This document shows, piece after piece, positions 1,276 to 7,557 of a stretch of DNA of 14,374 bases. Position 1 is the first letter of the stretch. Every line of letters starts with the position of its first letter. The translations under genes were made by a program, and so were the position numbers. Source of the DNA: an uncultured Planctomycetaceae bacterium (lineage in GTDB: Bacteria > Planctomycetota > Planctomycetia > Planctomycetales > Planctomycetaceae); contig CAIJTL010000673.1 in assembly GCA_903823545.1 (NCBI GenBank), positions 1 through 14,374 on the forward strand. The letters are read 5' to 3'. A model generated the notes under the pieces. The model saw nothing but the letters and a program-made list of their open reading frames with translations, did no database searches and was not told the origin of the DNA.

Positions 1276-1319
1276 GACGGGTCTCCTTGGCGGATCCGAG
1301 TGCCGCATCATGGCATCGT

Positions 1320-1469
1320 TGTGTCCGGTCTCCTGACCGAGACACTCTCCGCACGACCGAAGGTCTCCCGAACAACAGCAGGACGCGGTTGTGAGAGATA
1401 CCTTGGCCTACAGCGAAAGTGGAGACCTGCGGTCGAATGCGTGTGACTCCGTCATGAGACTAGCCACAA
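1320..1469. repeat. Diverged copy of the nested palindromic element, with enlarged loop
   Basis: The 26 bases at 1320-1345, starting TGTGTCCGGTCTCC, are identical to the left outer arm of the element at 6841-6947. The next part, GACCGAAGGTCTCCC (1355-1369), matches the inner arm with one change. Its partner GGAGACCTGCGGTC lies at 1421-1434, so the central loop is about 50 bases instead of 9. The right outer arm (1441-1468) is recognisable but clearly degenerate. The copy fills most of the gap between the convergent gltD and ABC exporter genes. It could still fold and act as a transcription barrier, but no T-run marks it as an intrinsic terminator. It encodes no protein. Confidence 0.8.
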
Positions 1470-1477
1470 CGTGAGAG

Positions 1478-6158: not shown

Positions 6159-6794
6159 TCAGTGTTCTTCTCGGTTGAAGTGCTCAAGCATTCGAATTGA
6201 TGCCAAGAGATTCTCTTTCGCCTGAATTTCGAATCGTTTCCGAAATGACTCTGTTTGAAAGATCGAATCGCGTTCGAGAAAGCGGCGCAAAATTGCCGTT
6301 CTTCCGTCACGAAACTGCTGGTCGGGAACCCAACTGTATTCCACGCGGATTTGTCGTTCGTATTCAGCAAAGCGTTCTGGATCGGAACCGAGAATTGCAA
6401 GGTCGATGTCCGTGAGGACCGCTTCATCGCGACTTCGACATGGCTGATCATGTTTGGTGGCCATGATCAATGAATTCACTCGTTGGACGATTGCCGGGTC
6501 GACGCGACCAGCCAGCATCGATCGCTCCGCTAAATCGGCACTTTGTTCTTCATTATCCGAACGATGTGTGTCGTAGATGGCGTCATGAAACCAAAGCGCG
6601 AGTTCAACTTCGTGCGGACGATCTGCCGCGTCACGAGTTACATCAAGTAGCGTGAAACACTCACGAAGATGTTGAAGAGTGTGGTATGCCCGATGCGGCT
6701 CCTCGTATCTTCGGACGAGCTCATTGAGCAACTCAGTGCCGGGATGCTGATTAAACTGCTTCCACACCGCGGCCCAGCGAATTTGGTCGATCAT
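6159..6794 (-). CDS. HD-domain metal-dependent phosphohydrolase (COG4339-like)
   Basis: This is a 211-residue cytoplasmic protein of the predicted HD-type metal-dependent phosphohydrolases. The natural substrate of this family is not established to my knowledge. Metal-binding motifs are in the usual order: H38 and H42 in PHRAYHTLQH, the HD pair H70-D71 in LWFHDAIYD, and TDIDLAILG (128-136) with the distal aspartates. The C-terminal half carries the family-like stretches EYERQIRVEYSWVP and FRDGRTAILRRFLERDSIF. Length is normal for the family. The start was chosen at 6794 because AGAGG lies nine bases before it. The in-frame ATG at 6803 (adding MNT) has that AGAGG directly against it, with no spacing. 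A longer open frame extends to 7661, but it is only the wrong frame of the repeat and the amidase remnant. The palindromic element lies about 46 bases upstream of the start, where the promoter would be. Confidence 0.87.
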   Translation of the reverse strand: MIDQIRWAAVWKQFNQHPGTELLNELVRRYEEPHRAYHTLQHLRECFTLLDVTRDAADRPHEVELALWFHDAIYDTHRSDNEEQSADLAERSMLAGRVDPAIVQRVNSLIMATKHDQPCRSRDEAVLTDIDLAILGSDPERFAEYERQIRVEYSWVPDQQFRDGRTAILRRFLERDSIFQTESFRKRFEIQAKENLLASIRMLEHFNREEH

Positions 6795-6840
6795 CGTGTT
6801 CATCCTCTGGATGATGCGTTGAGATACCGAATTGACAAGT

Positions 6841-6947
6841 TGTGTCCGGTCTCCTGACCGAGACACGCCGCACGACCGCAGGTCTCCCAAACAATGCGGG
6901 AGACCTGCGGTCAGGCAATTGGTGTCTCGGTCAGGAGACCGGACACA
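6841..6947. repeat. Nested palindromic element (REP/MITE-like), intact copy
   Basis: The outer arms are perfect 26-bp inverted repeats at 6841-6866 (beginning TGTGTCCGGTCTCC) and 6922-6947. Inside them are perfect 15-bp inner arms, GACCGCAGGTCTCCC (6874-6888) and its complement (6898-6912), around a 9-base loop. The whole 107-base unit could fold into one long two-stage stem. The GGTCTCC core occurs in both outer and inner arms. A diverged relative lies at 1320-1469. No reading frame of note lies within it, so any mobility would depend on a transposase elsewhere. The minus-strand stop codon of the amidase remnant (6931-6933) falls inside the right arm. Confidence 0.9.
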
Positions 6948-7557
6948 TCGATGCGAGACGCATCGACCACGGCTGAATTTGTTCCCACGCTCGTGATGCT
7001 TGCAGGACCAATTGGTCGGCGTGGCGGTTGCCGATGATTTGGAGGCCGACGGGGAGGCCGGATTTGGTCCAACCGGCGGGGACGCTGGCGACTGGTTGGC
7101 CGGTGAGGTTGAACGGGTAGGTGAACTGAGTCCATTGCAGCGGGCCGAGCACTTTGCCGTCGATTGGGTCGGCATCATCTTGGCCAACTGCGAACGGTGG
7201 GACTGGCAACGTGGGGCACAGCAGGAGATCGAAGCGGTCGTAAATTCGACGAACTTTCTCCCACAACTCATGCCGAGCGGCGAGTGCGTTGGCGAAATCG
7301 ACGCCTCGCAGTTTGAGGCCCGCATCAACGACACGCCGCAGTCCGGGGTCGAGCAGATCGCCTTGAGTGGCGAGCTTCTTTTCGAGCGATGCGGCGGCGG
7401 ACCCGAAGAAGAAAACGCTCCAGATGTCATAGGGATCGGTCCAATCCAACGAGATCGTTTCGACGTGACATCCGGCTGCGGCCAATCGCTCGGCCGCTTT
7501 CTGACAGATCGCAGCAACTTCCGGATCGACGTGCGCGTACCCCAGGTTTGGACTAAA
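6931..7557 (-). pseudogene. Amidase (amidase signature family) C-terminal remnant
   Basis: About 208 codons match the C-terminal half of amidase-signature enzymes (GatA-like, COG0154), starting SPNLGYAHVDPEVAAI and running through YDRFDLLLCPTLPVPPF, FTYPFNLTGQPVASVPAGW and GLPVGLQIIG, which are typical family segments. Family members are usually 450-500 residues. The missing N-terminal half holds the Lys-cisSer-Ser catalytic residues, so this copy cannot be an active amidase. Upstream the frame is open to a TGA at 7618-7620, but homology stops at about 7557, directly against a perfect hairpin. The last residues (SMRLASMCPVS) run into the palindromic element, which supplies the TGA. A TTG at 7485 could start a 184-residue product. 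No internal frameshift is seen, so the loss may be recent or the fragment may still be translated. Confidence 0.85.
6949..6965. repeat. Small palindrome beside the nested element
   Basis: A perfect 7-bp inverted repeat with a 3-base loop, CGATGCG-AGA-CGCATCG, starts two bases after the right arm of the nested element. It lies within the last codons of the amidase remnant. It may be part of the repeat insertion or simply chance; a loop this small with such a clean stem favours a structural role. Confidence 0.45.

Follow-up and report, generated by a model that had tools for sequence, protein, structure and literature searches.

A nested palindrome in a planctomycete genome is probably a REPIN-like mobile repeat linked to a clade of RAYT genes

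The closest described relatives of the element reported here are the REPINs and BIMEs which, together with a cognate RAYT gene, form the REPtrons. In the relevant parts of the published accounts these are described as two opposed hairpins occurring in dozens of copies, with the RAYT flanked by the repeat, with stems specific for the locus, and as homo- and heterodimers (PMC3733652, PMC6006769); REPtrons are said, in a passage of the latter paper, not to transpose as a unit (PMC6006769). According to sections of a study on TnpA-REP enzymes, single-stranded REP is cleaved near the hairpin, the enzyme reads the foot, the bulge or the loop, and in the one system tried a GTAG to GTTG change abolished cleavage (PMC8266576). 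In a second type of system, the TIRtrons with their TIRYT genes, a RAYT-like gene is bounded by long inverted repeats that are partly self-complementary and can form genomic families; some of them were called double palindromic in portions of the original description (Di Nocera 2013, PMC3733652). For the class 3 and subclass 2.6 TnpAY1 proteins, excerpts of a later survey report atypical structures beside the gene and copies elsewhere in the genome, class 3 being found mainly in Planctomycetes, Acidobacteria and Proteobacteria (Quentin 2018, PMC6006769). Prior work on REPtrons and TIRtrons, taken as a group and in part, also reported a plethora of RAYT-like genes with flanking repeats in R. 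baltica (PMC3733652, PMC6006769, PMC8266576). When literature text was searched for the string GGTCTCCTGACC, with figures and supplements outside the scope, one unrelated paper was found. Given the prior reports of double palindromic TIRs and of the genes of R. baltica, a planctomycete, related repeats may already stand in supplements.

The window, that is the whole stretch of 14,374 nucleotides that was analysed, derives from an uncultured Planctomycetaceae bacterium. An earlier note on this DNA had described a nested palindrome at 6841-6947 with 26-bp outer arms, 15-bp inner arms and a 9-base loop, and this description was exact. The left outer arm (6841-6866, plus strand) forms a perfect 26-bp inverted repeat with the right outer arm (6922-6947, minus strand); the left arm is also a hairpin on its own, with a TCCT loop and one bulged A, and the right arm is the same hairpin on the opposite strand. 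Separated from them by spacers of 7 and 9 bases are the inner arms, GACCGCAGGTCTCCC (6874-6888, plus strand) and its perfect 15-bp inverted-repeat partner GGGAGACCTGCGGTC (6898-6912, minus strand), of which the left one belongs to a pattern, GACCGNAGGTCTCC, found across the taxonomic family. The 9-base loop AAACAATGC (6889-6897, plus strand) is the site of a longer loop in other copies and of a RAYT gene in two loci of relatives (L123, L124). By inverted-repeat analysis and fold the whole element, which is of the short form, covers 111 bp (6839-6949, without assigned strand). A palindrome with 26-bp outer arms is far above chance: the longest perfect inverted repeat within 120 bp in the window was 26 bp, the maximum in 200 two-base-block shuffles 18 bp. 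The DNA fold of the palindrome had an energy of -55.1 kcal/mol (z -11.5), and none of 200 dinucleotide shuffles was as good. A search of the window with the Rfam 15 covariance models gave no match at gathering score. The GGTCTCC core, claimed before to be common to both tiers of arms, was confirmed in the inner and the outer tier of the window palindrome; the inner and outer hairpins have GGTC/GACC and TCC in common, and this sharing would be compatible with the idea that the unit arose when a simpler palindrome was duplicated. A separate small hairpin, TCGATGCG AGA CGCATCGA at 6948-6966, adjoins the right end of the palindrome.

The second copy in the window (1318-1470, plus strand) represents the long form. 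It is, with 153 bp and partly decayed arms, longer and less perfect than the palindrome, and is located between convergent FAD-oxidoreductase and ABC-transporter genes. The palindrome lies between the C-terminal remnant of an amidase gene (6931-7485, minus strand; PF01425 positions 348-445 of 445), whose stop codon is inside the palindrome, and the next gene downstream (6159-6803, minus strand; no Pfam match), whose start codon, placed by reading the sequence, is approximately 35 bp from the palindrome. Both window copies thus sit between genes, where copies of such a family had been expected. The amidase remnant adjoins the end of a gene that encodes a choice-of-anchor/RTX protein of 1,501 aa.

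Both window sites lie in a region of synteny with the closest sister contig (G005:C75), the matched flanks being 84-95% identical. In that contig the repeat is absent from both sites: 43 unrelated bases are present where the window has 135 at the palindrome, and unrelated sequence of similar length occupies the position of the 1318-1470 copy. Of the prediction that relatives would have empty sites, the absence of both copies from this contig was borne out, but its strict form was not, as the comparison revealed neither a clean pre-insertion site nor a target duplication at the two sites. At the position corresponding to 1318-1470 the sister contig (L180) carries other small palindromes, GGGGCACGTTTACAACGTGCCC and a similar one.

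In the host assembly (G000; 7.23 Mb, 1,707 contigs, 88% complete) BLAST detected 98 matching pieces at E up to 10, which by hand count correspond to 34 separate places at E <0.02, weaker places in C391, C396 and C1640 being omitted from this count. Short, imperfect palindromic repeats in many copies, as are expected of REPs and REPINs, are therefore present in the host genome. Thirty-two of the places were examined further (the fragments C1090 and C812 were dropped), and 26 of these copies had two clean ends, 8 being short (107-113 bp) and 18 long (144-184 bp). The earlier note had predicted many copies with the same nested layout, and these were found in the host genome and in relatives; the family is not limited to the two copies of the window. 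Each host copy is 71-88% identical to its nearest sibling, so that the population has diverged and shows no trace of a recent burst, and the recent movement that had been proposed finds no support in these values. Long perfect arms are rare in the family, yet the window copy is not alone in having them: over the 32 places, the longest perfect inverted repeat was 27 bp in C110, 26 bp in the window copy, 24 bp in C1567 and C1504, and not longer than 17 bp in the remaining 28. Inspection of the element ends by eye revealed no direct repeats.

Eight of the 32 host copies were too close to a contig end for their gene context to be assessed, and none of the other 24 was called in frame inside one gene. 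Coding signal, measured by a codon score trained on six window genes, was present on both sides in only 10 of the 24; the neighbors were convergent in 6 cases, co-directional in 4 and divergent in none. The four co-directional copies have differing frames, so frame-shifting insertions may be among them. These orientations, and the amidase stop codon inside the hairpin, would be understandable if the repeat were a 3'-end element kept by the host as an mRNA stabilizer or bidirectional transcription stop, with selection acting on the RNA hairpin and the RAYT link being an old side issue. We consider this unlikely, because copies are absent at both matching sister sites, species of the family differ widely in match number (0 to 120), and one RAYT clade has the repeat on both sides (see below). 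A function as intrinsic terminator was also considered and rejected, as no T run follows the hairpin end at 6947 in the window sequence.

Matches to the repeat at 1e-3 were found in 10 of 12 genomes of the genus, and the window copy was matched at 1e-9 in 13 of 150 sampled genomes of the family. A degenerate pattern describing one arm pair (outer GGTCTCC(N)GACC, spacer and the inner motif given above) detected the nested layout in 39 of the 170 family genomes searched, which belong to 16 of 58 genera, the reversed control giving 0 throughout, and the number of matches per genome varied from 0 to 120. The top value of 120 was that of G169, a genome with no clade RAYT at E 1e-20. Many of the elements listed have different outer stems on their two arms and a constant inner motif, although this constancy is partly built in, since the pattern itself requires the inner motif; the long outer pairing between the arms is not maintained in such mixed-stem elements.

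Several further observations were made on these copies. The nested pattern occurs in four viral contigs (L181, L182, L183, L184, L185), five times in one stretch (L184), and no RAYT was found near it in the stretches examined. In L152:870-3107 (G002:C173) ORFs run in frame through copies of the repeat; the first of these ORFs starts as an M56 (BlaR1-like) peptidase, so that some copies may be translated. Two candidates for cargo between distant half-elements were rejected: in L152 (G002) the copies are inside the ORF with the M56 start and do not bound cargo, and in L153 (G141) a decayed half is upstream of an ORF of unknown kind, with a second element, having one mismatch to the inner motif, downstream. 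At 31 places another copy of the outer right end, in most cases truncated at its 5' side, follows the first within 11-49 bp (L122:3727-3790, L123:2107-2160, L017:1628, L031, L037, L074 and others). These end ladders, whose fixed 3' boundary is partly a search effect, could have been left by cutting and joining at one end only, or by slippage. In some relatives the repeats stand in clusters 1-3 kb apart. Such spacing might recall integron attC-like recombination sites, whose core sites have the order RYYYAAC...GTTRRRY. The repeat ends read GTT...AAC by eye, the reverse of the attC order; the attC candidate was rejected on this ground and we regard its probability as negligible. Nor did an integrase catch the eye in the clustered loci.

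The outer arm is a hairpin of about 10 bp with GGTC/GACC at the top, a TCC(T/C) loop and often one bulged base, placed mostly right after GTT. Among 148 distinct outer units the loops were TCCT (98), TCCC (35), TCC (12), TCCG (2) and TCCA (1), and the stem was preceded by GTTG in 97, by GCTC in 12 and by GTTC in 10. A canonical GTAG (or GT[AG]G) 5' foot was not found as a feature of these units: the string GTAG occurred in 3 of the 148, and GTGG, present in 75, belonged to the paired stem in units of the GTGGC/GCCAC type. Pairing within arms scored 3.93, compared to 1.68 for dealt-out partners (s.d. 0.16, 200 deals), a control that ignores the relatedness of the units. The stem types GTGGC/GCCAC, GTGTC/GACAC and CGGCG/CGCCG differ by changes on both sides of the arm. 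Taken together, the better within-arm pairing and the two-sided stem changes suggest that each outer arm has most likely been maintained as a covarying REP-like hairpin. Behind each outer arm there is a small conserved hairpin, GACCGNAGGTC-TCC. The element therefore has two REP-like hairpins in inverse orientation which are able to form one hairpin.

A candidate transposase was found in G003, the genus member with the most pieces matching the repeat. The 181-aa gene (P0001) is located between repeat copies, with the nearest outer hairpins 13 and 29 bp off. P0001 matches NCBIfam NF047646 REP_Tyr_transpos with 98.1 bits (cut-off 80), and a Pfam search gave no match at 1e-3. By sequence it matched TnpArep in the PDB (4er8, E 3.5e-6), and 4er8 was also the first match of the predicted fold (E 1.2e-3), a model of modest confidence. 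All 26 sequences compared have H59, H61 and Y139; going by the range aligned to 4er8 we presume that H59 and H61 are the HUH pair and Y139 the catalytic tyrosine. There were 1,152 homologues at 1e-3; the 120 listed are all at least 60% identical, and among those listed one, from Symmachiella dynata, is named REP-associated tyrosine transposase. By these matches P0001 is a REP-associated tyrosine transposase (TnpA-REP, Y1 HUH). It is the likely mobilizer of the repeat. Homologues with 31-32% identity were present in four plasmid records, and none were detected in the phage records searched.

The host assembly gave no match to a P0001-clade RAYT at E 1e-3, and no inner motif was seen near its five Y1/RAYT-profile matches within the stretches examined. 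The G000 copies are thus either orphaned, or the gene lies in an assembly gap. The clade RAYT was also absent from 10 of the 11 other genus genomes (best match 1e-11, 23-29% identity), and 8 of these ten match the repeat. A clade-profile search of the phylum yielded 0 of 392, a zero which carries no weight as a negative, 8 candidates being scored per genome.

Linkage was assessed in seven clade loci, that of P0001 (G003) and six with 56-67% identity (L122; G076, G060, G045, G131, G150), which represent at least 4 genera (G076, G060, G045, G131 and G150 belong to three and G003 to a fourth). In all seven loci examined, the outer and the inner motif were found on either side of the gene at distances of no more than 700 bp. 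Among 24 loci of homologues with 29-38% identity, only L128 had the inner motif, 1.2 kb off and on one side, and three further loci had a single outer core. Of 97 other distinct RAYT/Y1 loci of the genus, L209 alone had the inner motif, with one mismatch, 8 others had a single outer core, and no locus had both motifs. The latter control was composed of 37 loci from L082-L120 and 60 from L186-L245, included all five G000 matches, counted the duplicates L101 and L111 (of L083 and L082) once and left out the weakest profile matches. Core motifs were applied to all groups; the strict motif missed the repeats of L123, which have a different stem. At the level of genomes, the clade RAYT was found in 6 of 170, all of which had the repeat, which was present in 33 of the 164 others (Fisher p 1e-4). 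Thus a RAYT with matching ends, which the earlier note had suggested looking for, was found in relatives but not in the host assembly, and help in trans, proposed because no transposase is nearby, is what these data suggest.

The repeat is present in many genomes that have no clade RAYT (8 genus genomes; G169), so the number of repeats and the presence of the RAYT are loosely linked. This, as well as the position of the gene between elements and not inside one in three of the seven loci (L122, L125, L126), could be explained if the RAYT were a passenger that had entered a set of repeats already present and mobilized by another agent. Such an arrangement would hardly account for seven out of seven loci in at least 4 genera having the locus's own stem variants on both sides, for the inner motif being found in only 1 of 24 and 1 of 97 control loci, or for repeat copies in L127 that bear the RAYT's own flanks, and we think it quite improbable. 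The stems beside the RAYT vary between lineages; those beside the gene in G003 include GTGGC/GCCAC and GTGTC/GACAC, that is both types of the G000 copies.

In two of the seven clade loci (L123, L124) the RAYT gene takes up the loop of a single nested element: it has an inner hairpin on each side, at a distance of 7-45 bp, and an outer hairpin beyond each of these. In L081 outer hairpins face the gene from both sides without inner ones, and in L127 the element is intact on one side of the RAYT and truncated on the other. Four neighboring repeats in L127 consist of the upstream and the downstream flank of the RAYT, with the coding sequence absent: the upstream flank is present in two pieces of 32-50 bp (73-95%) and, 3 bases on, is followed by 67 bp of the downstream flank (93-99%). 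Loss of the gene from these copies, or entry of the gene into such a copy, would produce the sequences seen. The relation was found in G150 only, and no match was seen between the flanks of the G003 gene and the loop of the G000 long form.

Copies equal to the ends of the gene-bearing element without the gene (L127) are a feature shared with MITEs of IS elements. If the repeat were a MITE belonging to a common DDE insertion sequence whose terminal inverted repeats are long, its inverted ends, the lack of a long coding frame of its own and the two size classes would be accounted for. However, in the loci where a transposase was seen between or inside such ends it is a single-strand Y1 RAYT, no target duplication was noticed by eye at the ends or in the sister comparison, and the ends are self-complementary hairpins with covariation. 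A DDE origin therefore appears very improbable. Another possibility, which we put forward tentatively and regard as rather doubtful, is that the whole RAYT system moves or has moved as a unit, with the gene carried inside the loop of its own two-tier hairpin, and that the repeats scattered over the genome are this element minus its coding sequence.

Compared to REPtrons, whose flanking of a cognate RAYT by the repeat is seen in the relatives (7/7 loci) but not in G000, the present element lacks the GTAG foot (97 of the 148 units have GTTG), has a further conserved hairpin on the inner side of each outer one, in some copies has very long perfect arms, and can have the RAYT in the loop of one element. 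With the TIRtrons it has in common a RAYT-like gene between long inverted repeats that are unrelated to GTAG REPs. The GGGGWSAS sequence reported for some TIRs in the part of the paper concerned (PMC3733652) was not noticed here by eye. In the pertinent section of the survey, 20 of 26 TIRYTs were in subclass 2.1 with an HTH extension (PMC6006769), whereas P0001 has 181 aa and, as stated above, no Pfam match at 1e-3. Class 3 proteins are characterized in the same excerpts by W[TA] and Y..EQ motifs and a CnGA foot, in contrast to WQ and YLHENP in P0001 (PMC6006769). Subclass 2.6, with WQ and YIH[QN]NP, is near P0001 in these motifs, and was reported, in the part covering it, mostly from Bacteroidetes (PMC6006769).

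We estimate with a probability of about 0.8 that the palindrome is a non-autonomous REPIN-like mobile repeat of a RAYT (TnpA-REP, Y1 HUH) system whose RAYT has been lost from, or is missing in, this assembly. The working ends would be the outer arms, each a hairpin of its own with the conserved small inner hairpin behind it. As the two ends face each other, a single-stranded copy could fold as a whole into one long hairpin of two tiers. The outer hairpins would be recognized by a RAYT of the P0001 clade, which would cut and rejoin the single strand near the hairpin feet and in this way spread the element. By analogy with the studied enzymes, we infer that the G000 copies were bound, cleaved and dispersed by a clade RAYT of this kind. 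The usual foot of the repeat is GTTG, which was not cleaved in the system mentioned above; the clade must therefore read the foot differently if this REPIN-like model is right.

The family bears on how REP-like repeats and RAYT genes stay linked, and on where such repeats originate. Within this single planctomycete family several stages are displayed: in some genomes the gene is inside an element, in others it stands among elements, and in others again there are repeats but no gene could be detected. The stems are specific for the lineage, while the inner hairpin is kept. By comparison of these stages and by cleavage assay one can test gene deletion against gene capture as the origin, whether stem and enzyme evolve together, and how orphan repeats persist. 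If transposition as a unit should prove true, the family would provide a link between the IS200/IS605 transposons and the REPtrons, in which a quickly changing outer hairpin, determining specificity, stands over a conserved inner hairpin.
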